Of a stretch of DNA of 64,000 nucleotides, positions 27,797-40,086 are shown in pieces. The stretch spans positions 62,001 through 126,000 of the forward strand of contig CAJXTU010000001.1 in assembly GCA_913060865.1 (NCBI GenBank), given 5' to 3'. Origin of the DNA: an uncultured Cycloclasticus sp. GTDB lineage: Bacteria > Pseudomonadota > Gammaproteobacteria > Methylococcales > Cycloclasticaceae. Position numbers and translations under genes: made by a program. The first letter of the stretch is position 1. Each line of letters begins with the position of its first letter. The notes beneath the pieces are model-generated. The model was not told the DNA's origin, did not search any database, and worked only from the letters and a program-made list of their open reading frames with translations.

Positions 27797-27824
27797 AGGC
27801 CAAAGACTCTTTGGCCTCCTTTTT
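27797..27824 (+). terminator. Hairpin terminator between the hemE operon and pilE
   Basis: A perfect 9-bp stem, AGGCCAAAG with CTTTGGCCT, loop ACT, followed by CC and five T on the plus strand. It lies between two converging transcripts and overlaps the pilE stop. A second hairpin without a T run (arms 27654-27660 and 27665-27671) covers the stop codon of the Rdx gene. Confidence 0.65.
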
Positions 27825-28260
27825 ATCGCCAGCAGTTTGTTAATGTGGCTGTTTTATTACCAGTCTGGCTGTAAGTCATTGTTCCACACTTGTCCGATGT
27901 TTGTGCATTCTGTGGAGTGGCTTGTAGTACAAAAGCAGTTGCTGTTGGAGCTGCTGAAAATGAATAATTATAATCATCATGAATGATGCCCGGGTCTAAG
28001 GCTGGGGTGCATCCTGCTGGACTTGCGCAGGCAGTGGATGATATAGGGTCACTAGTACCATTTAGTATTAAATACGAGTTATTTTCAGTGAAACGGCGCT
28101 CAAGAAAATTAGATAACTTCAGCAAGTCTGACTGGGCTGTTGTACGCTTATTAGTACGAGTATTTTCCACATACGAAGGGTAAGCTATAGACGCTAATAT
28201 AGCGATAATGGCAACCACAATCATTAATTCAATAAGGGTAAAGCCGTTTTTAGTATTCAT
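27823..28260 (-). CDS. pilE: Type IV minor pilin PilE
   Basis: A 145-residue type IVa pilin. It has a class III signal (MNTKNG, cut before Phe7), the conserved FTLIELMIVVAIIAILASIAYPSY helix split here as the usual hydrophobic N-terminus, and Glu at mature position 5. A C-terminal disulfide region includes C-x(15-20)-C (DKCGTMTYS...TNCWR). It is the last gene of the minor pilin operon, matching the position of pilE in Pseudomonas. The size is close to that of a major pilin, but the operon context argues for a minor pilin. Confidence 0.9.
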   Translation of the reverse strand: MNTKNGFTLIELMIVVAIIAILASIAYPSYVENTRTNKRTTAQSDLLKLSNFLERRFTENNSYLILNGTSDPISSTACASPAGCTPALDPGIIHDDYNYSFSAAPTATAFVLQATPQNAQTSDKCGTMTYSQTGNKTATLTNCWR

Positions 28261-28282: not shown

Positions 28283-31200
28283 TTATCTTAATTGACGCCA
28301 TGATTGTCTGCCAGTAGGGCTACCAGAGGACTCTTTGATCATATCTAAATTACCGCTAGAGCCACTCGAGTATTTACATTCTGTGCCATCATCGCAAATA
28401 ACGACACCCGGCGTTTTAATAATGCCAAGGCCATCTTTACGAATACCGCTGATAGGGATGTTATCTAGAGCATCAATGGTTCCATCTCCATTAGTGTCGT
28501 AAATTTCTACAATATCGAGCAAGTCAATAACACCATCATTATTGATATCAAAAGGTGAGATATCAAGGCGACTACCACTGACAGCATCTAGCTCCATTAA
28601 CCAGCTTGAGCCACCAGAATTACATGGATTAGGGTCAGGTATTAGAGTAACAAATATGATGCGTCCATTTCTTAGTAGAGGGGCAGCGACCACACGCTCA
28701 CCTTCTGGACCATTGCCATTATATGGGGAGGCAATGGGCACGTTTAGATCCATATACCAACCATCTTTTGTTGTATAGTCAACAGTTGTGTTTGATGTTG
28801 CACGTAAATCGATAAGCGTCGAGTCACTTGGAACTGGGCTAGAAGGTGTCTTTATAACGTTAGAAGCTGTTACCTCAAATGTTTTTTCCGTTAAGATTTC
28901 TTGTTGTAGTAAATTCGTACGGCTTGAAACGGTGGAACCTTGGTCTCTAATACCATAGAAAGTTTGTATTTGTGGTGATGGGCCAACTATTTGGTCATTA
29001 ACGGCATAATATTTACCAGTGCCAAAGTACACCATTAAACCACCGTCAGGGTGTTTGCCAACTTGCGGTTTAGCGGTAATGGGTTGCGGGGTGCTAGAGC
29101 CATCAAGAGCCTGAAATAGTGGTGCAGGACTAGGGTTTGTGCCATAGGCTACTTTCCAAGTGCTTGTATTGTTACCTGATACATCAAACTTCCATAGATT
29201 GCCAAGCAAGTCACCAGCGTAAATACTATCAGTAACTTTATCGCCATCTTCATCAACTGCAATAGGAGTAGACAGCCCATTAGGACTACCTGCACTGCCA
29301 ACACCAGTATCAATTTTCTTAAGTATATGCCCGGTTTGAATATCAATTAAGAATAAAACAGCGGAGTTATTTGCACTTTCGTAACCGTTAGCAACGACAG
29401 CAGCCCAGCTACCATCTTGCATTTTAACTATTGATGCCTGAGGTAATGTGTAGCCGAGATCAGCAGCAAAAGAACCCACATCTGAGGGGTTTGGGGCTTG
29501 AATATCTGAAATCTCCCATAAAACATCACTGGCCGAAAAGCTGGAAGGGTTTGTAACGTCTAGGGCGAATAGGCCTTTGCCACCTGCGCCTAGAGTAGTA
29601 ACTAGAACTGAATGCCATGTACCACTAAAGTAAGCGTCGCCACCACGGGGAGCGCCGTCAACAAAATACCTGTGGGGGATACAGCCAGCACTTCTGCAGC
29701 CATAAAAAGGGTCTGTCAAAGTACTCAATGCACCGATAGTGGCATCAGGTACGTAGGAAAATAATTCGACGCCCCTAGTAGAATATGATGATTCAGTTGG
29801 GCCTGATGTTGCATTAACAGCGTGTAACATGCCATCGTTAGCTGAGAAATATACGGCAGGCGTTCTAGTAAGTTTAGCGGTTAAATGGGCAGGGTAGGCG
29901 GCAGCTTCCGTAGTATTAGCTAACTGAGTGTAACCAAAGTCTTCAATATGACCTGAAAACCATGGATCGGAGTTAATGACATCACCTAATAAAGACACAC
30001 GGTCCCTAAATGGGCCACCATTTTGTTGTTCGCTGGAGGTATCACCTCGAATATAATCGGTTCTATTTGATCCTAATGTATCCGTTGAGCCAGATGAATC
30101 TGTGTTCATCAGTAGTTGCTGGGCAGTATTGAGGTTAGCGTATTCAAAAATAATGCCTGTAGAGCTGCCACTGGTAGAATCGTAAGAGAATATATTTCGA
30201 CTGTTTTCAGCAGGTATAAGCGTTGAGGCATCCCACGCTTGTGATCCAATACTTCCATCATTATTTAAATTAAACGCTAATAGCTGTCCGGTCCATGTTG
30301 CGCTATTAAAGCGAGCCTGGAAGATATAGGAATTAGTATCTAGGCGTGTAGAATTAGTAGCAACGGCTGATGCAGAAGAGGTTAGTGCTTCAATATTGGT
30401 AAATGCTTGGTTAAGAGCGGAGACAAGTTTGTCTGGTTCAGTCGCTAATACATAATTGTCTGGTTCGCCATCGCTGTCGGCATCCCATTCGGTTGTTGAT
30501 GTGCCTGGCGTACCATTATTAGGGTCCGCATCCTCATTATCATCAACAAAACCACCGTACTTTCCAGCAAGCCACAGCATGTTCATTTGTCCTAGTAAGG
30601 GATTTGAACTGTATTCTTGGGAGTCCACCATAAAGGTCGATACTGTTTGTTTTCCTACGAAGTCGGTTGTTGCACCTAAGTTACCTGTAGCGCCGGTACG
30701 AATATCTTCTGTATTAGCATAGTAAGCAAGGCCTGCAATGTAGTAAGAATTTTCCTTTGGTGAATAAGGGGCTGTGCCCATTACTTCACCTAAACCTGGA
30801 ATTATTTTTGCAGTATTGGCCATGTCGCAATTAAGAGCTGTACAGCCAACAACTTGAGAGGTACCGGTCAGCCCCTCTAGGTCGCCAACAGTATTGGTAA
30901 GGTTGGTGACATTGATGTCTGAATCAGGCGTGCTAGGTTCGCCATAATCATCGCTAATATCTCTGCCATTAAAACTACTGGCTGTAAAGTGAGTGCCAGG
31001 CAATCTTTTATCTTTCCAGGGGTTGGCATCATTAATGCCGATAATGAAATTATTTTGGCATTCGTATTGAATTGGATCTTCCCATCGACTGCCATCTAAA
31101 ACAGGGAATCCACCATTAGCACCTGCAAGGTATTCTGCCGTCGGACCAAGGTTTTTGAAATAACGAATAGACTCATAAAATAACTCACTGGCAGGGTCGT

Positions 31201-32221
31201 TACCTTTATAGCCGGGATCGCTAAATTTGTTCAAATAGGTAATCACACCCGAGAGAGTTACACCGCTAGCACTGGCATCCCCTGTGTTAGCATTAGTGTT
31301 AATGATGCCAGTTGAAAGGATTTCTGCAAGGGGGTTAGTCATTGTCCCGCCTGAGCCATCTGGCATGGTTGTGCCGACGTATTTCATATTGGAGCGTAAA
31401 ACACCACCATCAATTCCGTTGCCACTGGTATTGGTGTAACTGGTCACACCAAAACGCATATGGTCTGCATTCTTTTGTATTAAGCCCTCGGGCTTGTAGT
31501 AACTGGCACTGCCGTAGGGTACGCAGTTGGCTTCTAAATTACCGCTACTTTCACACACTTTGATTTGTACGTCGTAGGTGCCGCCACTTAAATCATCGGC
31601 GTCAATTGATGTACCAAACTTAACACCGAACGCTTCATTACGAATATACACAGGACCAGACCAAGGAGTTACCGTAGATGGATTTACGTTGTGAGTAGAC
31701 TTAATAAGTTTACGGGGGAACCAGTTGTTGTTGTTTTGTTTTCTGGTTCTACGAATAACTGTTTCAGTTGTACTATCGACTACACGGTTGCCACCTGTCA
31801 TCGTCCAGACAAACATATCCATGGCTGTCATGGTGGCCCAGTTCATAAAGTTACCACTAAATTTGCTGGTACATTCATGGTTGGTGTTATTTACTGGGCC
31901 AGCGGGGTTAAACTGCCCAGACCCATAGGTGTAGCATTTATTTGGGTCAAAATAGCCAAGATATTCTTGAATAGGAGAATAACAGATACCTACAGTACCA
32001 CCGTCATTCACGCGACCAGTACACCCAGTTGATACATTGGGTTGATCATTATAAGCTGCTCCCCCCATTGGAGTTTCAACAGACATATTAAAGAGTACAT
32101 TCGGATCCACCGAGGTAGTTAAAAATAAGGGTGATGGGGCAATGGCTGCATATGCAGAACCGGCTGTATATAAGGCGGCAAAAGCAATGAGAATAAATCT
32201 TTTGATGATTAGTTTTAACAT
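28283..32221 (-). CDS. pilY1: Type IV pilus tip/biogenesis factor PilY1
   Basis: A 1312-residue secreted protein with a signal peptide (cleavage after AGSAYA). The C-terminal half is the PilY1 beta-propeller; the calcium loop is DEDGDKVTDSIYAGD (about residue 990), as in the Pseudomonas protein, which controls pilus extension and retraction. Near the C-terminus two EF-hand-like loops, DINNDGVIDLLD and DTNGDGTIDALD (about 1220-1250), occur side by side. The N-terminal part has no DxSxS integrin-like metal site; at the expected place it reads NVLFNMSVETPMGG. It lies 20 bases after pilX and 22 bases before pilE. Confidence 0.93.
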   Translation of the reverse strand: MLKLIIKRFILIAFAALYTAGSAYAAIAPSPLFLTTSVDPNVLFNMSVETPMGGAAYNDQPNVSTGCTGRVNDGGTVGICYSPIQEYLGYFDPNKCYTYGSGQFNPAGPVNNTNHECTSKFSGNFMNWATMTAMDMFVWTMTGGNRVVDSTTETVIRRTRKQNNNNWFPRKLIKSTHNVNPSTVTPWSGPVYIRNEAFGVKFGTSIDADDLSGGTYDVQIKVCESSGNLEANCVPYGSASYYKPEGLIQKNADHMRFGVTSYTNTSGNGIDGGVLRSNMKYVGTTMPDGSGGTMTNPLAEILSTGIINTNANTGDASASGVTLSGVITYLNKFSDPGYKGNDPASELFYESIRYFKNLGPTAEYLAGANGGFPVLDGSRWEDPIQYECQNNFIIGINDANPWKDKRLPGTHFTASSFNGRDISDDYGEPSTPDSDINVTNLTNTVGDLEGLTGTSQVVGCTALNCDMANTAKIIPGLGEVMGTAPYSPKENSYYIAGLAYYANTEDIRTGATGNLGATTDFVGKQTVSTFMVDSQEYSSNPLLGQMNMLWLAGKYGGFVDDNEDADPNNGTPGTSTTEWDADSDGEPDNYVLATEPDKLVSALNQAFTNIEALTSSASAVATNSTRLDTNSYIFQARFNSATWTGQLLAFNLNNDGSIGSQAWDASTLIPAENSRNIFSYDSTSGSSTGIIFEYANLNTAQQLLMNTDSSGSTDTLGSNRTDYIRGDTSSEQQNGGPFRDRVSLLGDVINSDPWFSGHIEDFGYTQLANTTEAAAYPAHLTAKLTRTPAVYFSANDGMLHAVNATSGPTESSYSTRGVELFSYVPDATIGALSTLTDPFYGCRSAGCIPHRYFVDGAPRGGDAYFSGTWHSVLVTTLGAGGKGLFALDVTNPSSFSASDVLWEISDIQAPNPSDVGSFAADLGYTLPQASIVKMQDGSWAAVVANGYESANNSAVLFLIDIQTGHILKKIDTGVGSAGSPNGLSTPIAVDEDGDKVTDSIYAGDLLGNLWKFDVSGNNTSTWKVAYGTNPSPAPLFQALDGSSTPQPITAKPQVGKHPDGGLMVYFGTGKYYAVNDQIVGPSPQIQTFYGIRDQGSTVSSRTNLLQQEILTEKTFEVTASNVIKTPSSPVPSDSTLIDLRATSNTTVDYTTKDGWYMDLNVPIASPYNGNGPEGERVVAAPLLRNGRIIFVTLIPDPNPCNSGGSSWLMELDAVSGSRLDISPFDINNDGVIDLLDIVEIYDTNGDGTIDALDNIPISGIRKDGLGIIKTPGVVICDDGTECKYSSGSSGNLDMIKESSGSPTGRQSWRQLR

Positions 32222-32241: not shown

Positions 32242-32766
32242 TTAGCGTTTATAGGTGCTTTGTAACATAACTACAGCGGTATCAGTGCCGCCAAGTGCTC
32301 TAGTCGTGAGACGGTAATAACGAGTTTCAATGGCCACCCCAGCTTCTAAACTACTTCCAGACTCAGGCACAGCGGGCATTTCTTCAATGATGTATGCAGG
32401 GGGTGTAGTTATATCAGTAAGTATTCCGGTGTACGCAATAACATCGTTAGCGGTATCAGACCAATTAGTAACACTTTCGTCCCAACGTGCTGGACCAGAG
32501 CTAGTTGGCTGGTAGTGACCTAATGAGCCACCGGTAAACGGTGGTAATATAGCGGTTGTTCTTAGGTATTCTTCTGCTGCACGCAGTGCAGATTCCCCTG
32601 CTTGGAAGGACATGTTTCTATCCTTGAAGTTCCCTGCCATTCTTTCTTCTAAAACAGTAGTTTGCATGCCTGAAATGCCTAGTAGAGTCATTATTAATAA
32701 TATAATAAGGCTGACAAATAATACGGCGCCGCTCTGCTTGTTATGGAGTTTGAAATGATTATTCAT
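32242..32766 (-). CDS. pilX: Type IV minor pilin PilX
   Basis: A 174-residue pilin-like protein. The leader is long (MNNHFKLHNKQSG, cut before Ala14), the N-terminal helix is AVLFVSLIILLIMTLLGISG, and mature position 5 is Val rather than Glu, as is usual in the PilX/GspK group at the pilus tip. The following EERMAGNFKDRNMSFQAGES matches the PilX N-terminal family. It starts 2 bases after the pilW stop. Confidence 0.9.
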   Translation of the reverse strand: MNNHFKLHNKQSGAVLFVSLIILLIMTLLGISGMQTTVLEERMAGNFKDRNMSFQAGESALRAAEEYLRTTAILPPFTGGSLGHYQPTSSGPARWDESVTNWSDTANDVIAYTGILTDITTPPAYIIEEMPAVPESGSSLEAGVAIETRYYRLTTRALGGTDTAVVMLQSTYKR

Positions 32767-32768
32767 AC

Positions 32769-33848
32769 TTATTGCACTCGGTTTCTAATACCGATTACGG
32801 TTGTAAAAACTCGGCGTAATCGGTTATCTGCAGAGGTAACTGTTACGCCATTATAGGTATAAGTCAGGTTGTCGGTGGTTAGGTTGTCGTCCTGAGTTTC
32901 TACCAACAAGCTGATTTCAGCGCTGATCACATTGACCCAGTTAGTTGCAGTATTAATAGTGTTTGCCGTTTGATAAGCATCGACAATATCATCACCTGTT
33001 GTGTCTACACCATAGGTTACTTGCATATCTTCAACGCCTTCTATTAATTCCATGGGGTTTTGTGCTGAAGCGAGTTCAGTGTTGTCAAATACCCATAGGG
33101 CATTACGGCCGCCAGCACCTTGGCGTATATAATAGGTTAGCGAGCTAAATTTTAGCAATTCAGAGTCGGCTCCATATAATTTTGCGTTAGCGGTGCCACA
33201 AGATCCTGTACCAATACCTGTTTGGTTAATGCAAAAGTGTGTTCCTGTATTTGAGCTAGCGCTATGGGTGATGGTTTGTGGAGTACCACTGGAGACCGTG
33301 GTAGCCCTGAATATATGAGCATCTTGGCAGTCTGAAAGCATTAATACGTCTCCTGCTGCTAGGTTGCAACTATTAGGGGATGAAACTTGTATATTGGCAT
33401 TGGAGGAGGCTAGTGATCCGGTTAACGTTGCACCACAACTCGTACCTTTTTGAATGGTAATCGTGTCGGTGCCACCAATGACTGTGCCGTTAATACTGGC
33501 ATTTAATGCGGGGCTCCAAGCGGTGGGTGATGTGGCTTCATTGCCATTGATGGTAGTGTCTTCCGTGTAGTTCGGAACAGGTGCATTAGCAACAGTTTGC
33601 ACATTCATTTCTTCTATAGCTCTACAGCCCGTGTAGCCGGCTTCACGTACGTCTTTGGTAATGAATTCTAGCGCGAAGCGGGCGTTTTCCTGCAACCTTG
33701 ATTGCTCTTCTGTTATTCGGTAGGTTTGTTGAGAACTAACGAATACCTGACTGATGCCAGCAGCTAATAGCAGACCGATAACCATAGCGATCATCAACTC
33801 AACAAGAGTAATACCACACTGTGCTGTTTGTGTTTTAGGATGCGTCAT
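32769..33848 (-). CDS. pilW: Type IV minor pilin PilW
   Basis: A 359-residue pilin-like protein with a class III signal (cut after CG, residue 12) and mature start ITLVELMIAMVIGLLLAAG. The segment TEEQSRLQENARFALEFITK is typical of PilW/GspJ-like proteins. Its large C-terminal domain, with a Cys pair in the first third, is common for PilW. It overlaps the pilV stop by 4 bases. Confidence 0.92.
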   Translation of the reverse strand: MTHPKTQTAQCGITLVELMIAMVIGLLLAAGISQVFVSSQQTYRITEEQSRLQENARFALEFITKDVREAGYTGCRAIEEMNVQTVANAPVPNYTEDTTINGNEATSPTAWSPALNASINGTVIGGTDTITIQKGTSCGATLTGSLASSNANIQVSSPNSCNLAAGDVLMLSDCQDAHIFRATTVSSGTPQTITHSASSNTGTHFCINQTGIGTGSCGTANAKLYGADSELLKFSSLTYYIRQGAGGRNALWVFDNTELASAQNPMELIEGVEDMQVTYGVDTTGDDIVDAYQTANTINTATNWVNVISAEISLLVETQDDNLTTDNLTYTYNGVTVTSADNRLRRVFTTVIGIRNRVQ

Positions 33849-34294
33849 AACTCTGTACTCATTGAAAAACGTTGAGTGCTATTGCCATTGACGCCACGAG
33901 AGTCATCCCACTGTATGGTAATGGTGGTTACACCGGCAACGGTTGTGATTGCACCACCACCAGTAGGCCCTAGAGGAAGGGATGCTGAAAGAGCATTCTT
34001 CCAAGCAAACAAGTCGTTGTCGACAACAGAGCCTGAATTAGGAGATGCACCGAGGAGGGTAATATCATAGCCACCCGCTTTGGCAACCTGCTTGTTAATT
34101 CTCATACGATCTATAATGTCATATATATGAATGACGGCTTCTGTACGTAATTGCGCACTGTGGTTGCTTTTAAGGCTAGCAACTTGTAGCCCCGCAAGGC
34201 CTAATAAACCAATTGCCAATACAAATACTGCAACCATTACCTCTATCAAAGAAAAACCGTTTTGGCGAGCCCCTAGTTTTTTTATTACGGACAT
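33845..34294 (-). CDS. pilV: Type IV minor pilin PilV
   Basis: A 149-residue pilin-like protein. The class III signal ends at RQNG, and the mature protein begins FSLIEVMVAVFVLAIGLLGL, which is the PilV signature, followed by AGLQVASLKSNHSAQLRTEA. It overlaps fimT at its start by 10 bases and pilW at its end by 4. It belongs to the initiating tip complex with PilW and PilX. Confidence 0.92.
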   Translation of the reverse strand: MSVIKKLGARQNGFSLIEVMVAVFVLAIGLLGLAGLQVASLKSNHSAQLRTEAVIHIYDIIDRMRINKQVAKAGGYDITLLGASPNSGSVVDNDLFAWKNALSASLPLGPTGGGAITTVAGVTTITIQWDDSRGVNGNSTQRFSMSTEL

Positions 34295-34863
34295 GTTGCG
34301 GTTCCTGTTGATGTTCGAGGGCGGCCAGAAGCATTGATACGTATTGATTTGGACTTTGCTGTGTCAACATTGTCAGCGCATACTCTAAATGTGTCATTAG
34401 CCAATCCGCCTGAGCTTGTTGATAGGCCACTGGGTAGATAACCAAGCCAATCATCATAGTTGGCGCCAGTACGTAGTGTATAACCATTTGGAAGAGAGTT
34501 ATAAGTTTTTAGCAGGCAATCTTCGCCAGCTTCGCATAAATTAGCATCAGCATTGTCTGTTAGAATGCCGTCCCCATTTATGTCAGTAAAAATATCCCAG
34601 CCAGTATCCCAAACTTGACTAGTAGTGCCTTTACGATGAATGGTTACTTGAACCCCCCGCTTTATAGCTTCGCTTCTGGCCAAATTAAGCGAAGCGACAA
34701 GGTTGTTCGTCTGTGTAACGGTATGGTTTTTCCGTATGAATTGTTGATAGCTGGGCACAGCAATTGCCAAGAGAATGCTAGCTACAATAAGCGTGGTTAA
34801 TAGCTCAATGAGTGTAAAACCTTGTTGTGGTTTTAAACTAATATGTTGTTGATGAGTTTTCAT
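34285..34863 (-). CDS. fimT: Type IV minor pilin FimT/FimU (GspH family)
   Basis: A 192-residue pilin-like protein: leader MKTHQQHISLKPQQG, mature start FTLIELLTTLIVASILLAIA and the GspH/FimT signature VPSYQQFIRKNHTVTQTNNLVASLNLARSEAIKRG. It has a Cys pair near the middle and a Cys near the C-terminus. It is the first gene of the minor pilin operon. Whether it corresponds to FimT or FimU cannot be decided; only one such gene is present. FimT in other species can bind DNA during uptake. Confidence 0.88.
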   Translation of the reverse strand: MKTHQQHISLKPQQGFTLIELLTTLIVASILLAIAVPSYQQFIRKNHTVTQTNNLVASLNLARSEAIKRGVQVTIHRKGTTSQVWDTGWDIFTDINGDGILTDNADANLCEAGEDCLLKTYNSLPNGYTLRTGANYDDWLGYLPSGLSTSSGGLANDTFRVCADNVDTAKSKSIRINASGRPRTSTGTATCP

Positions 34864-34943
34864 AATTTTGAGCTTAGCAGAATTTTACATCAACAGGGGC
34901 ATTTGAAAGATGAGAGGTGTTTTTTGCCAGATAAACGGTAGGT

Positions 34944-35080
34944 TTATTCCGTATCCATTAAATGGATTGATTCGTCATTGAAGTCTGAAGAAGCTTCAGA
35001 GCTAAGTTTAATCATCAGTTATACTTCACTTTCTGAATCAGCATACACCAGCACATTTTCATAGCTAATTTCACCTTTTT
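34944..35080 (-). pseudogene. Remnant of a second pilU 3' end
   Basis: Read on the minus strand, this stretch encodes KGEISYENVLVYADSESEV, a TAA, LMIKL and about 20 further codons to a TAA at 34944-34946. The intact PilU ends with SGDISYENAINYADSANEV-R-LMIKL before its own tail. Seventeen of the first 25 positions agree, and the Arg of EVRLMIKL is a stop codon in the remnant. Another in-frame TAA sits just before the similarity. It is therefore a decayed copy of the last 45 or so codons of a pilU-like gene, with a tail (HLMDTE) unlike the intact one. It lies about 210 bases behind the pilU stop and 80 bases before fimT. Confidence 0.8.
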
Positions 35081-35287
35081 AAGCCAGTATCTTGTAGGCT
35101 GGGCTAACGACTGCAGGGATGCAGGAGGTAGAGTAACGCAGGAGCAGTTACCGAGGTAAGCAGCCCAAGGCTTTAAATATTATTGTTGGGGTTTCTGCGT
35201 CTCCTCAAACGCCTAGTTTTGGTACTCTACCTCCTGCGTCCATGCGGTCGTCGGTACGAACCTACGAAGGTTGGTGCGGGTTAGTTA
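35081..35287. repeat. Inverted-repeat element between pilU and its 3' remnant
   Basis: The 207 bases between the intact pilU stop and the pilU remnant contain a long inverted repeat. The left arm at 35117-35135 and the right arm at 35223-35241 match at 18 of 19 bases, including 15 in a row (GCAGGAGGTAGAGTA and its complement), with 87 bases between. Other short inverted pairs are GGCTGGGCT near 35097 with AGCAGCCC near 35159, and AACC/GGTT near 35260. I see no coding sequence. The look is that of a REP- or MITE-like non-coding element; no second copy is present in the window. Confidence 0.55.
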
Positions 35288-36418
35288 CTAATCATAATTA
35301 TCAATCAACTCCATGCCTTGATTATCGTCGTCATTTTTGGATGATGATTTGATTTTTGCATCGCCTAGTTTAATCATTAAGCGAACTTCGTTGGCTGAGT
35401 CGGCGTAGTTAATGGCGTTTTCGTAGCTTATGTCTCCACTTGCGTAGAAGCCGTATAACGCCTGATCGAAGGTTTGCATGCCTTGTTCGGTTGAGTTTTT
35501 CATTAACTCTTTCAGTTTGTGGATGTCGCCTTTTCGAATGAAGTCGGATGCTAGAGGGGTATTGAGCATGATTTCAATCACGGCTTTTCTAGTCTTGCCA
35601 TCAATCGCGGGCACTAGTTGTTGGGCGATCATGGCTTTTAAATTCAACGATAAATCCATAAACAATTGCTTATGGGCTTCTTCTGGGAAGAAGTGAATAA
35701 TACGATCGAGGGCTTGGTTAGCGTTGTTTGCATGTAAGGTAGATAAACATAAATGCCCGGTTTCTGCGAAGGTCATGGCGTGTTCCATGGTTTCGCGGCT
35801 ACGAATTTCACCAATCAGAATAACATCGGGTGCTTGGCGCAAGGTGTTTTTCAATGCGACTTCGTAGGATTCGGTATCGATACCTACCTCACGCTGAGTG
35901 ATGACGCAGCCCGCGTGCTCATGCACGTATTCCACAGGGTCTTCAATGGTGATGATATGGCCGGAGCTGTTTCTATTGCGGTAACCCACCATAGCGGCTA
36001 GGGAGGTGGATTTACCGGTACCGGTTGCGCCAACAAAGATGATGAGGCCACGTTTGGTCATCGCTAACTCATCTAGAATCGGCGGCAGATTGAGTTCTTG
36101 GCTAGTTGGAATAGTGGTTTCAATACGACGTAAGACCATGCCTGCATGATCTTTTTGTATAAATGCGCTCACTCGGAAGCGACCAATGTCTGGGCGCTGA
36201 ATAGCGAACTGGCACTCTTTGGTGTCGTCGAACTCTTTTTTCTGGTCGTCGGACATGATGCTTTTGACGATCTCTAAAGACTGGCTAGCACTGAGGCGAG
36301 TTTTTGAGACTTGTTGGAGCGCACCGTTCACTTTAATGGTTGGCGCCCAGCCCGATGTAATAAATAAATCAGACGCTTTTTTGTGAACGACGAGTTGTAA
36401 TAGTGCATCAAAATCCAT
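35288..36418 (-). CDS. pilU: Type IV pilus retraction ATPase PilU
   Basis: A 376-residue PilT-family ATPase. Walker A is GATGTGKST (about residues 130-138); the Asp box ITIEDPVEYVHEH, the Walker B-like APDVILIGEIRSRETM and the His box GHLCLSTLHANNA are all present. It lacks the AIRNLIRE motif of PilT and has an acidic C-terminal tail, both typical of PilU, which works together with PilT in retraction. It starts 21 bases after the pilT stop. A decayed second copy of its 3' end follows downstream. Confidence 0.94.
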   Translation of the reverse strand: MDFDALLQLVVHKKASDLFITSGWAPTIKVNGALQQVSKTRLSASQSLEIVKSIMSDDQKKEFDDTKECQFAIQRPDIGRFRVSAFIQKDHAGMVLRRIETTIPTSQELNLPPILDELAMTKRGLIIFVGATGTGKSTSLAAMVGYRNRNSSGHIITIEDPVEYVHEHAGCVITQREVGIDTESYEVALKNTLRQAPDVILIGEIRSRETMEHAMTFAETGHLCLSTLHANNANQALDRIIHFFPEEAHKQLFMDLSLNLKAMIAQQLVPAIDGKTRKAVIEIMLNTPLASDFIRKGDIHKLKELMKNSTEQGMQTFDQALYGFYASGDISYENAINYADSANEVRLMIKLGDAKIKSSSKNDDDNQGMELIDNYD

Positions 36419-36439
36419 GTGTCTTTCTCTCCTTATTGG

Positions 36440-37477
36440 CTAGCTGAATGCTTTTTTATCGGCAGCTTTCATGCGGGCATCTTGCCTAGTTACTAGTCCT
36501 GCTTGAACGAGTTCAGTTAAATGCTGATCGAGTGTCTGCATGCCATCTTTACGGCTGGTTTGAATGGTGGAATACATTTGTGCGATTTTATCTTCACGAA
36601 TAAGGTTTCTAATGGCAGCGGTACCGGTCATGATTTCCCATGCGGCTATTCGACCACCACCAATTTTTTTCATCAGCGTTTGTGCGATAACGGCGCGAAG
36701 CGATTCCGACAACATAGACCGTACCATGCCCTTTTCACCTTCTGGGAATACGTCAATAATCCGGTCAATGGTTTTGGCGGCGGAGCTGGTATGCAAGGTG
36801 CCAAAGACCAAATGCCCGGTTTCAGCGGCGGTTAGCGCAAGGCGAATGGTTTCAAGATCTCGCATTTCGCCCACAAGAATAATGTCGGGATCTTCACGAA
36901 GCGCAACACGTAAGGCTTCACTAAAGCCGTGGGTGTGTTTATGCACTTCACGTTGATTAATTAAGCACTTTTTACTTTTGTGTACGAACTCGATCGGGTC
37001 TTCAATGGTTAGAATATGTTCGTATACGTTGTCGTTTTTGTAATCCATTAGCGCGGCTAACGTGGTGGATTTACCAGACCCCGTGGGCCCTGTCACCAAT
37101 ACAATGCCACGAGGTACGTTGATGATTTCTTTGAATGATTGTGGGCAGTTGAGGTCTTCTAGGGTGAGAATATCAACAGGAATGGTTCTAAATACGGCTG
37201 CTGCACCACGGTCTTGATTGAAGGCGTTGACACGAAACCGCGCTGTTCCGGGCAATTCAAACGAGAAATCGACCTCAAGGAATTCTTCGAAATCACGCCG
37301 TTGCTTATCGTTCATGATGTCGTAAATCATCGCGTGAACTTCTTTGTGCTCAAGTTCGGGCATATTGATTCGGCGAATATCACCATCGACACGGATCATT
37401 GGTGGCAAGCCTGCTGAAAGGTGTAAATCGGAAGCATTGTTTTTTGTGCTAAAGGCTAATAAATCTGAAATATCCAT
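36440..37477 (-). CDS. pilT: Type IV pilus retraction ATPase PilT
   Basis: A 345-residue hexameric motor ATPase that depolymerises the pilus and drives twitching and DNA uptake. Walker A is GPTGSGKST (residues 130-138), the Asp box ILTIEDPIEFVH, Walker B DPDIILVGEMRDLET, the His box GHLVFGTLHTSSA, and the PilT-specific AIRNLIRE near the C-terminus. First gene of pilT-pilU; divergent from yggS across 123 bases, as in Pseudomonas. Confidence 0.97.
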   Translation of the reverse strand: MDISDLLAFSTKNNASDLHLSAGLPPMIRVDGDIRRINMPELEHKEVHAMIYDIMNDKQRRDFEEFLEVDFSFELPGTARFRVNAFNQDRGAAAVFRTIPVDILTLEDLNCPQSFKEIINVPRGIVLVTGPTGSGKSTTLAALMDYKNDNVYEHILTIEDPIEFVHKSKKCLINQREVHKHTHGFSEALRVALREDPDIILVGEMRDLETIRLALTAAETGHLVFGTLHTSSAAKTIDRIIDVFPEGEKGMVRSMLSESLRAVIAQTLMKKIGGGRIAAWEIMTGTAAIRNLIREDKIAQMYSTIQTSRKDGMQTLDQHLTELVQAGLVTRQDARMKAADKKAFS

Positions 37478-37490
37478 GTTTTAAATCCGT

Positions 37491-37521
37491 TTGCCCTGGT
37501 GAGCTTAGTTGTTTGTATAAT
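37491..37521 (+). promoter_or_regulatory. Possible promoter of yggS
   Basis: A perfect -10 TATAAT at 37516-37521 in the pilT-yggS gap. The best -35 is TTGCCC at 37491-37496, with a long 19-base spacer. It would give a leader of about 70 bases. Confidence 0.4.
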
Positions 37522-37600
37522 GAACTAGTTAGAAAATAACACTATCGTTGGTGCATGTAAATCCAACGTCCACTTAAAGTATAGACACGAATTTTAAATA

Positions 37601-38290
37601 ATGCTTCCTTTATTACGACGATATTTTGCGCAAAAAGAGCTCATTGCTCATTTGGCGAATAAGAATGCCTTGCCAGTGAAATTGCTAGCGGTGAGTAAAA
37701 CCCGCCCGGCGAGTGAGGTGGCTGTATTGTACAAGGCTGGGCAGCGCGATTTCGGTGAAAATTACCTGCAAGAAGCGCTGAAAAAACAGCAGTTATTAGC
37801 CCATCTTGATATGACGTGGCACTTTATTGGCCCCATCCAGTCGAATAAAACACGCGATATTTCGCGGTACTTTAGCTGGGTGCATAGTGTTGACCGATTG
37901 AAAATAGCGGTTCGACTAGATCAGCAACGGCCAGTTAACTTAGCGCCGCTGAATATTTGCTTACAGGTTAATATTGATGAGGAAGAAACAAAGTCGGGCT
38001 TTTACCTAGATGAGTTGCCGAATGTGATTGAACCAATATTAGCGCTAAAAAACGTTAGGTTACGTGGGCTTATGGCTATTCCAAAAGTGGATAAATCGAT
38101 TCATGAGCAACGTCTTTCGTTTAAAAAGTTGGCAGACGCTCAAGAAAAGATCAATCAATCCTTTGATATTAAACTGGATACCCTGTCGATGGGGATGAGC
38201 GGTGATTTGGAGGCGGCCATTGCAGAAGGTTCGACGATGGTGAGAATAGGTACTGCAATTTTTGGCGAAAGAGCTAAAAATACGGTTTAA
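37601..38290 (+). CDS. yggS: PLP homeostasis protein (YggS family)
   Basis: A 229-residue single-domain PLP-binding TIM-barrel protein without known catalytic activity; it buffers pyridoxal phosphate in the cytoplasm. The PLP lysine is Lys33 in LLAVSKTRP; FGENYLQE, WHFIGPIQSNK and LSMGMSGDLEAAI complete the signature. First gene of yggS-proC-yggT-yggU. Confidence 0.95.
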   Translation: MLPLLRRYFAQKELIAHLANKNALPVKLLAVSKTRPASEVAVLYKAGQRDFGENYLQEALKKQQLLAHLDMTWHFIGPIQSNKTRDISRYFSWVHSVDRLKIAVRLDQQRPVNLAPLNICLQVNIDEEETKSGFYLDELPNVIEPILALKNVRLRGLMAIPKVDKSIHEQRLSFKKLADAQEKINQSFDIKLDTLSMGMSGDLEAAIAEGSTMVRIGTAIFGERAKNTV

Positions 38291-38323
38291 TAGGATTTAA
38301 TTTTTTTAATGTGAAGTGAGAGT

Positions 38324-39151
38324 ATGAATACACAACAGATTGGATTTATTGGCGGTGGCAATATGGCCAGTAGCTTGATTGGTGGGCTGGTGAGTAATGG
38401 TTACCCTGCTGATAAGATTACGGTTGCTGATTTAGATGCTGAAAAATTGACCTATTTAAGTAAAACATTTGGCATTAATAATACGCAAGACAGTGGTGCG
38501 CTGGCCGCCAATGTGGATATTTTAGTGTTAGCGGTTAAGCCACAGCATATGCAGCCGGTGGCGGAAGGAGCAGGGCTGGCGATAAAGGATAAAAAACCGG
38601 TCGTCGTCTCTATTGCGGCAGGTATTCGAGTGGATGCGCTTGATCGTTGGCTAGGCGGTAACTTCCCCATTGTTAGGTGCATGCCTAATACGCCTGCGCT
38701 GGTTAAAACAGGCGCAACAGGGCTATATGCGAGTGCTCAGGTGGATAACAGCCAAAAGGACCAAGTTGAATCACTGTTACGTGCTGTTGGGGTAACGGTT
38801 TGGGTTGAAAATGAAAATGAACTGGACGCGGTAACGGCTTTGTCCGGTAGTGGGCCGGCTTACTTTTTTATGATGATGGAAGCATTAGAGGCGGCTGGGA
38901 TTGAAGCAGGTTTGAGTCAAAAGACGGCGCAATTATTAACGCAAGAAACGGCCTTGGGGGCGGCAAAAATGGCCTTGGAATCGAGTGAGTCAGCAGGTGT
39001 GCTGCGTCAACGAGTAACTTCCCCAGGTGGAACAACAGAACGAGCCATAGGTGTTATGGAAGAGCAGGGCTTGGGCGATATTTTGCAGGCCGCTGTGTTG
39101 GCGGCTAAAGAGCGTTCGATTGAGCTATCTGATGAATTAGGAGACAGCTAA
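38324..39151 (+). CDS. proC: Pyrroline-5-carboxylate reductase
   Basis: A 275-residue enzyme for the last step of proline synthesis. It has the N-terminal Rossmann motif IGFIGGGNMASSLIGGL, the VKPQ motif (LAVKPQHM), and the conserved LSGSGPAYFFMMMEAL and TSPGGTTERAI in the dimerisation domain. Its stop overlaps the yggT start by one base (TAATG). Confidence 0.97.
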   Translation: MNTQQIGFIGGGNMASSLIGGLVSNGYPADKITVADLDAEKLTYLSKTFGINNTQDSGALAANVDILVLAVKPQHMQPVAEGAGLAIKDKKPVVVSIAAGIRVDALDRWLGGNFPIVRCMPNTPALVKTGATGLYASAQVDNSQKDQVESLLRAVGVTVWVENENELDAVTALSGSGPAYFFMMMEALEAAGIEAGLSQKTAQLLTQETALGAAKMALESSESAGVLRQRVTSPGGTTERAIGVMEEQGLGDILQAAVLAAKERSIELSDELGDS

Positions 39152-39705
39152 TGCCCACAGGCTACTTATCGAACCCGTTGATACTCATTATCAACTCTTT
39201 GGTTGGCGCATATATTTTTGTGTTAATTCTTAGAGTGTTATTACAGTATACGGAGGCGGATTCACGTAACCCTGTATCTAGTTTTATTATTAAGGCAACT
39301 CAGGCCCCTCTAAAGGCGTTAAAACCTATATTTCCAACGCTTAAGGGCTTTAATTTATCAGCGCTTGCGTTAATGTTATTGCTGCAAATGGGTTTGGGGT
39401 TTATAGCAATGGCTGGGCAGCCTAATGTTTGGGTTGTGTTTATTTGGAGCCTGACGGAGCTGATTAGCAGCATTATTAACGTCTTCATCTATAGTATTTT
39501 TGCGACGGTTATCTTAAGTTGGATCAACCCTGGTACCTATAACCCCGTTGTTAGCCTGTTGTATAAAATAACGGAGCCTGTGATGAAACCCTTTCAGCGG
39601 CTGATTCCACCGATGGGCGGCATGGATTTAAGCCCGATAGCAGCTCTATTAGCGTTACAAGTGGTAAAAATGTTACTACTACCCCCTCTTTTTGCGTTGA
39701 TGTGA
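39151..39705 (+). CDS. yggT: YggT family membrane protein
   Basis: A 184-residue inner membrane protein made of two YGGT repeats of about 90 residues, with hydrophobic segments near residues 8-28, 65-90, 95-120 and 155-180, and repeat signatures NPVSSFIIKATQAPLKALKPI and NPVVSLLYKITEPVMKPFQRL read across each half. Function is not settled; osmotic or potassium-related roles and cell-division links have been proposed for relatives. The order proC-yggT-yggU is conserved in gammaproteobacteria. Confidence 0.92.
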   Translation: MPTGYLSNPLILIINSLVGAYIFVLILRVLLQYTEADSRNPVSSFIIKATQAPLKALKPIFPTLKGFNLSALALMLLLQMGLGFIAMAGQPNVWVVFIWSLTELISSIINVFIYSIFATVILSWINPGTYNPVVSLLYKITEPVMKPFQRLIPPMGGMDLSPIAALLALQVVKMLLLPPLFALM

Positions 39706-39806
39706 TAGTGGGCGGGTAAGCTGCCTTATGTATGGGAATACGGGTGAGCCTTTTGCTGACTTGATGTTCAGTTTGAACGTGTGCGTTATGTCTCGTGGTT
39801 TGTGAC

Positions 39807-40086
39807 ATGAGGTCGCTTGATTACTATAGGTGGGAAGGTGATACCTTAGTTTTTAATATTTTTTTGCAGCCGCGAGCAAGTAGAAACAGCCTTGTGGGGT
39901 TGCATAAAAATTGCGTTAACCGCTCCCCCTGTTGATGGAAAAGCTAATAAGCAACTGATTTATTTTTTATCGTCGTTATTTGGTGTGAAAAAATCTGATA
40001 TTGACATCATTAGCGGTGAGCACAGTCGGCGCAAACGCATCAGCGTGTGCAAGCCATCACAGTTCCCAGCAGATTTTTTTAAATAA
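39807..40086 (+). pseudogene. yggU: yggU (DUF167), frameshifted
   Basis: The first half reads from an ATG at 39807: [19 protein letters not shown], then [14 protein letters not shown], exactly as DUF167 proteins begin. From 39904 the homology continues in the next frame as [15 protein letters not shown] and on to the family's C-terminus (SRRKRISV), stopping at 40086. Between the two parts the family has three more residues (GLH-GDE-VKVAITAPPVDG in E. coli), so about 11 bases are missing. Reading straight on, the first frame gives HKNCVNRS. The gene is in its usual place after yggT. It is either a recent pseudogene or an assembly error; an 11-base loss makes a simple base-calling error unlikely. 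Confidence 0.8.

Follow-up and report, generated by a model that had tools for sequence, protein, structure and literature searches.

Behind the intact pilU gene of an uncultured Cycloclasticus, a marine oil-degrading bacterium, a short piece of DNA reads as the 3' end of a second pilU, and the question raised by this locus is how a pilus motor gene, encoding the accessory motor PilU, came to be followed by a dead end of its own kind. The window analyzed is the whole 64,000-nucleotide stretch in which the locus lies. Its own genome (2.43 Mb, 39 contigs) is designated G000, its sister genome G001, and the other G numbers denote further Cycloclasticus genomes. The genus sample comprises 18 genomes, and the pilU locus was found in 13 of the 17 others. 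Among the papers that a library search on Cycloclasticus and type IV pili brought up, none has either term in title or abstract.

The Remnant Behind pilU

The intact pilU (35288..36418, minus strand) encodes 376 amino acids. About 210 nt past its stop, on the same strand, begins the remnant (34945..35078), which consists of a 25-codon core, a 19-codon tail and a stop; translated along the minus strand from 35078 to 34945, it reads KGEISYENVLVYADSESEV, a stop, LMIKLSSEASSDFNDESIHLMDTE and a final stop. The core shares 17 of 25 residues with intact PilU, confirming a sequence-only reading of this DNA that had described a decayed pilU 3' end behind the intact gene. Of the two in-frame stops listed in that reading, one (35019-35021) does fall within the homologous stretch, while the other (35079-35081) only marks the 5' edge of the remnant, where homology ends. 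With its reading frame disrupted by the internal stop and the 5' nine tenths of pilU absent, the remnant is a decaying pseudogene fragment of pilU without function. That the resemblance might be no better than that of shuffled sequence is answered by the scores: in local alignment, 34864-35287 scores at best 94 with the window's own PilU and 114 with that of G001, while the maxima among 2000 dinucleotide shuffles of the same region were 50 and 66, respectively, none of the 2000 attaining the observed score against either protein.

At the DNA level, 60 of the 75 bases of the core are identical to pilU of G001 and 47 to the intact copy. A site bootstrap of the core placed G001 closest in 4471 of 5000 replicates, and the intact copy came out closest in 2. 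The remnant is, on this comparison, the 3' end of a different pilU allele and not a copy of the intact gene; the "second copy" of the sequence-only reading thus stands as to the part of the gene and falls as to its nearest relative. Regarding the last 19 codons and the spacer that follows them, the nearest genome is G010 and not G001 (2641 of 3000 bootstraps), and the remnant is a composite, its core closest to G001, its tail and spacer closest to G010. The remnant continues directly into the downstream sequence and fimT operon of its own allele, and when the junction is compared in relatives, this downstream sequence adjoins a complete pilU in seven of the seven genomes of the form designated B below. 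Relatives whose pilU ends in a tail of the remnant's type, asked after in the same reading, do exist (G013, ...TIHLIDTE; G010, ...TIHLIDAE; G016, ...TIHLVDTK).

Two Forms of the Locus in the Genus

Two forms of the locus, lying between hemE and pilU/pilT, can be found among the 13 relatives, six of form A and seven of form B, each with a fixed gene order and PilU tail. In form A (G015, G012, G008, G009, G005, and G011), PilU ends in ...GMELIDNYDG or a near variant, pilU faces a convergent pilE-like gene on the other strand, and a distinct set of minor pilins extends to hemE. In form B (G001, G003, G004, G006, G010, G013, and G016), PilU has a different tail and is followed about 80 nt on by a same-strand fimT, then pilV, pilW, and pilX, with pilY1 and pilE beyond pilX wherever the contig continues. 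PilY1 (PF05567) is found in seven of the 18 genomes, namely G000 and six of the seven B genomes, the contig of the B-type G006 ending after pilX, and is absent genome-wide from all six A genomes. A PilW-like protein of the A type has matches of 63-100% identity in all six A genomes and weak ones, of 25-37%, in the other genomes with a match, B genomes and G000 included. By allele comparison, the intact pilU of the window is of type A and the remnant of type B.

Some further features of these loci were observed in passing. The A-type genomes keep PilT and PilU while being devoid of PilY1. Regarding the pilins of the A-type genome G008, the best models are of the ppd type or PilV, mostly under the curated cut-off; its locus (L041 8700-19700) encodes two large proteins in place of PilY1, one PilV-like (588 aa) and one PilX-like (453 aa), and also harbors a divergent REP-associated transposase-like gene. 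A short contig of the G001 bin (L306, G001:C61:1-8159), running from hemE to pilU, carries another pilU/pilus-tip locus, with a B-type operon different from the main one of G001; its hemE-side DNA is 75% identical to that of G001 itself and 81% to that of G010, and this locus probably comes from another, co-binned species. No pilU locus was found in G002, G007, G014, and G017. No PilT/PilU-family match was found in G017, which is 98% complete, or in G007, which suggests that type IV pili have been lost in these two genomes.

An A-Type pilU Before a B-Type Operon

The intact PilU is 95.7% identical in amino acids to that of G015 and 80.5% to that of the sister G001. Downstream, all on the minus strand, the window carries fimT with a GspH domain (34285..34863), which is the first gene of the B-type operon, a pilV-like minor pilin gene (33845..34294), pilW (32769..33848), pilX (32242..32766), pilY1 (28283..32221) and, at the operon end, a pilE-like minor pilin gene whose product has a ComP_DUS domain (27823..28260). 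The fimT, pilV, pilW, pilX, and pilE genes are nearest to those of G001 and pilY1 is nearest to that of G016; the entire downstream operon can be assigned to the haplotype of the remnant. Around the seam, the DNA of G001 aligns twice, to 35355-40000 and to 32242-35080 of the window, and the 3' end of its pilU is used in both alignments. In the window, an A-type pilU is thus joined to a B-type operon, and the remnant at the seam is a B-type pilU end in its usual position before fimT. As a side observation, PilY1 of the window (28283-32221) and of G001 (L047 11269-15687) are 63% identical in the C-terminal part but no more than 27% over residues 1-509, a pattern that an exchange of the adhesive half would give.

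A switch between alleles lies near the pilU start (36340..36420), where similarity to G001 falls and similarity to A-type genomes holds; it arose in the lineage of either G000 or G001. The first 50 nt of G001 pilU are 88-94% identical to those of the A genomes other than G011, which stands at 86%, compared with 76-82% to the B-type G006 and G004, 90% to G003, and 86% to G010. Given this A-like start, G001 itself may have lost an A-type gene. In the pilU tree, the pairing of G000 with G001 is rejected (delta lnL 238). The species tree is likewise rejected among the A-type pilU genes (p 0.004-0.005) and among the B-type ones (p 0.013); with this conflict inside both classes, recombination here has been repeated. 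The pilU genes of G001 and G003 are 85.1% identical, against 73.9% genome-wide, and for the non-coding spacer between pilU and fimT their identity is 87-95%, where the genome-wide level is 74%; this similarity is best attributed to a separate exchange event. A single transfer behind everything was considered and rejected, since G001 and G003 exchanged pilU too and the remnant is composite.

The species tree was built from rpoB, gyrA, alaS, carB, secA, and dnaE in the 18 genomes, some with missing genes, and places G000 and G001 as sisters with a support of 100. The tree of operon proteins also groups G000 with G001 (support 78), in an alignment where pilE of G000 is cut at the edge of the segment used and the "pilE" of G006, whose contig ends early, is probably a wrong ORF, both rows having been kept. 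At fourfold degenerate sites, G000 and G001 differ by 0.34 in pilE, 0.41 in pilW, and 0.45 in pilV, with core genes at 0.44-0.57, and fimT, pilX, and pilY1 are saturated (0.60-0.67); synonymous distances in general are close to saturation (0.6-0.7) and any dating is therefore rough. From the protein tree and the vertical-like fourfold distances of pilE, pilW, and pilV, the operon would be native to the line of G000 and G001. The A-type pilU of G000 is 82.7% identical to that of G015, for 79.6% at the genome level, and its divergence from other A-type genes is about that expected from species distance; on that measure it could be native as well.

The Repeat Spacer and the Control Site

Between intact pilU and the remnant lies a repeat spacer (35094..35280) made of two REP-like units facing each other. 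Its inverted arms (35107-35135 and 35223-35251) are 90% complementary, and the repeat unit starts with GTAG (35094-35097). Further copies of the unit can be found in G000 on contig C13 and elsewhere on C1. The copy on C13 lies 184 bp downstream of a gene for a REP-associated tyrosine transposase of 176 aa (L308 1450-1980; NF047646, 200.5 bits for a cut-off of 80), the only Y1 transposase found in G000. Of the traits by which REP/REPIN elements are recognized, palindromic units, an inverted pair and a GTAG head are present at the seam, and an associated transposase is encoded on C13. Copies are many in G006 and G010, with 20 and 19 matches to the query, respectively, each count including one match to the pilU tail. 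Among the six A genomes, the longer repeat units matched once in G009 and nowhere in the other five. That the spacer was brought by an A-type donor was rejected, the A-type flanks giving only 10-base matches and the longer units being common in G006 and G010. The two units probably came in at the join or close to it, before or after it formed, and they may have erased its original state.

Just past the stop of the remnant and before fimT, there is an imperfect direct repeat, ACCGTTTATC and ACCTCTCATC with an 11-nt gap (34909..34939, minus strand). In a scan allowing gaps of 9-13 nt, such a repeat with the 11-nt gap came out top in each of the 14 loci, A and B forms alike (the window and 13 relatives), and its score was equaled by 0-3 of the 300 shuffles made for each locus. 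In the six A-type loci, the second half-site contains CCGTTTGTC, which is identical to an AlgR site of Pseudomonas aeruginosa (PMC4064291). The repeat is therefore put forward as a candidate LytTR/AlgR-like operator, and the DNA just after the remnant probably still holds the putative regulator site of the operon. A join would have been viable only upstream of this putative control site, and some pilU tail would have stayed with the operon for that reason.

History of the Join

Starting from the observed allele identities, synteny and seam, we favor on balance a history in which the A-type pilU replaced a B-type one, whose tail remained at the seam between haplotypes. The ancestor would have had a B-type pilU directly before the B-type fimT-pilVWXY1E operon, as in seven of the 13 relatives. 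An incoming A-type pilU would then have replaced the 5' nine tenths of the B-type gene. On one side, at the pilU start or ahead of it, the exchange would have gone by ordinary homologous recombination, and on the other by a non-homologous join, while the old tail, the control region and the operon remained in place. The homologous end is placed, conditionally, near the pilU start; left of the remnant, no extended similarity to G001 or to intact pilU was seen by eye. The DNA may have been taken up by natural transformation, a route made plausible by the ComP_DUS domain of PilE. Of the two histories offered by the sequence-only reading, this is the one in which the old tail stayed where it was when a pilU with another end arrived by recombination; it is the best supported, with its direction, that is, which half is native, favored and not proven. 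A foreign donor, also suggested there, holds only if the term is taken to cover a different allele class of the genus itself.

The favored direction draws on the shared history of the operon with G001 (tree and fourfold sites), on the core of the remnant being nearest to G001, and on its limited decay: relative to G001, the core has 6 changes in 50 sites at codon positions 1-2, fewer than expected had the gene been dead for the full length of the G000 branch (P ~0.005 with a rough neutral rate, synonymous sites being treated as neutral), from which the remnant probably died after the split of G000 and G001. In the reverse direction, a B-type operon would have arrived behind a native A-type pilU, carrying along the final 45 codons of pilU from its donor and joined non-homologously to the native pilU flank; the remnant would then be the foreign piece. 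We consider this direction doubtful, though with a real chance of being correct. It accords with the divergence of the A-type pilU of G000, which fits vertical inheritance, with the occurrence of form A in G015, G008, and G012, near in the species tree, with the A-like 5' end of G001 pilU, and with the resemblance of the remnant's tail and spacer to the distant genome G010; these points, together with the saturation of fimT, pilX, and pilY1 and the repeated recombination of pilU, count against the favored direction. An operon in common with the sister G001, at a vertical-like distance for pilW, pilV, and pilE, and a remnant core nearest to that genome speak against the reverse one.

Histories that do without allele exchange fare much worse. 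A local tandem duplication of pilU, with the second copy decaying in place, would account for a remnant that is adjacent, on the same strand and from the same part of the gene, but hardly for its core being closer to G001 than to the intact copy, nor for its being followed by a spacer and fimT of the B haplotype, which follow a complete pilU in all seven B genomes; we regard it as scarcely credible. The other history offered by the sequence-only reading, a mobile element that split the 3' end of pilU and later shrank to the repeat spacer, is very unlikely: REP-like repeats do lie exactly between the intact gene and the remnant, and the genome does encode a REP-associated transposase with a repeat copy close downstream of its gene, yet the 3' end of intact pilU is complete and of the other allele class, PilU is of type A as a whole, and nothing was split. 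Mixed haplotypes do occur in bins of this genus, as the G001 bin shows, and an assembly artefact fusing the haplotypes of two strains could in principle mimic the seam; this is extremely improbable for a seam inside a 538-kb contig of an assembly that is 99.9% complete and 0.33% contaminated and has one pilU, and a chimera leaves the decay of the remnant unexplained.

Relation to Known Systems and Significance

The process itself is already known, and this locus is a further example. Alternative linked gene sets can be found at the same place, and the locus tree conflicts with the genome tree. In the comC/fimU/pilV cluster of Acinetobacter baumannii, linked minor pilins and a PilY1-type tip adhesin occur as alternative variants swapped as a block, with single-gene trees in conflict with species trees as here; gene order is conserved there and the flanking genes stay outside the block, whereas in Cycloclasticus gene content and orientation vary between the two forms, PilY1 is missing from one of them, the pilU allele goes with the form, and a seam is preserved in one genome (PMC10374093). 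In Vibrio cholerae, effector genes of the T6SS are displaced while immunity genes are kept, which is explained by homology-facilitated illegitimate recombination; there, as proposed for this locus, a module is anchored by homology on one side and joined non-homologously on the other, with the old 3' part left downstream, although the leftovers in V. cholerae are whole immunity genes, thought to be useful, while that of Cycloclasticus is a dead fragment (PMC5361080).

Like the GTAG-tagged REPs and REPtrons described in PMC3733652, the repeats at the seam are palindromic intergenic units, paired as is often the case, with units that open with GTAG and a copy near the gene for a REP-associated tyrosine transposase; unlike them, those of G000 are few in copy number and have a long insert in the units. 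With regards to the control site, AlgR controls the fimU-pilVWXY1Y2E operon of P. aeruginosa, and regulators of the LytTR type recognize direct repeats spaced by about 12 bp (PMC4064291); the candidate site in front of the Cycloclasticus operon is similar to CCGTTTGTC / CCGTTTGGC.

The scar marks one exact seam between two pilus-tip haplotypes and preserves a legible record of gene exchange. In the 13 other genomes the PilU allele goes with the tip type; the window shows that the two can come apart. As a speculative and rather unlikely extension, there may be two mutually exclusive tip haplotypes, with or without PilY1, each with a matching PilU allele and both under one common control site, of which the window would be a natural mismatch. 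If true, motor and tip would co-adapt and yet could uncouple, the window combining an A-type motor with a B-type tip. Type IVa pili with and without PilY1 at one locus offer a natural setting in which to test the roles of PilY1 and of the PilU allele.
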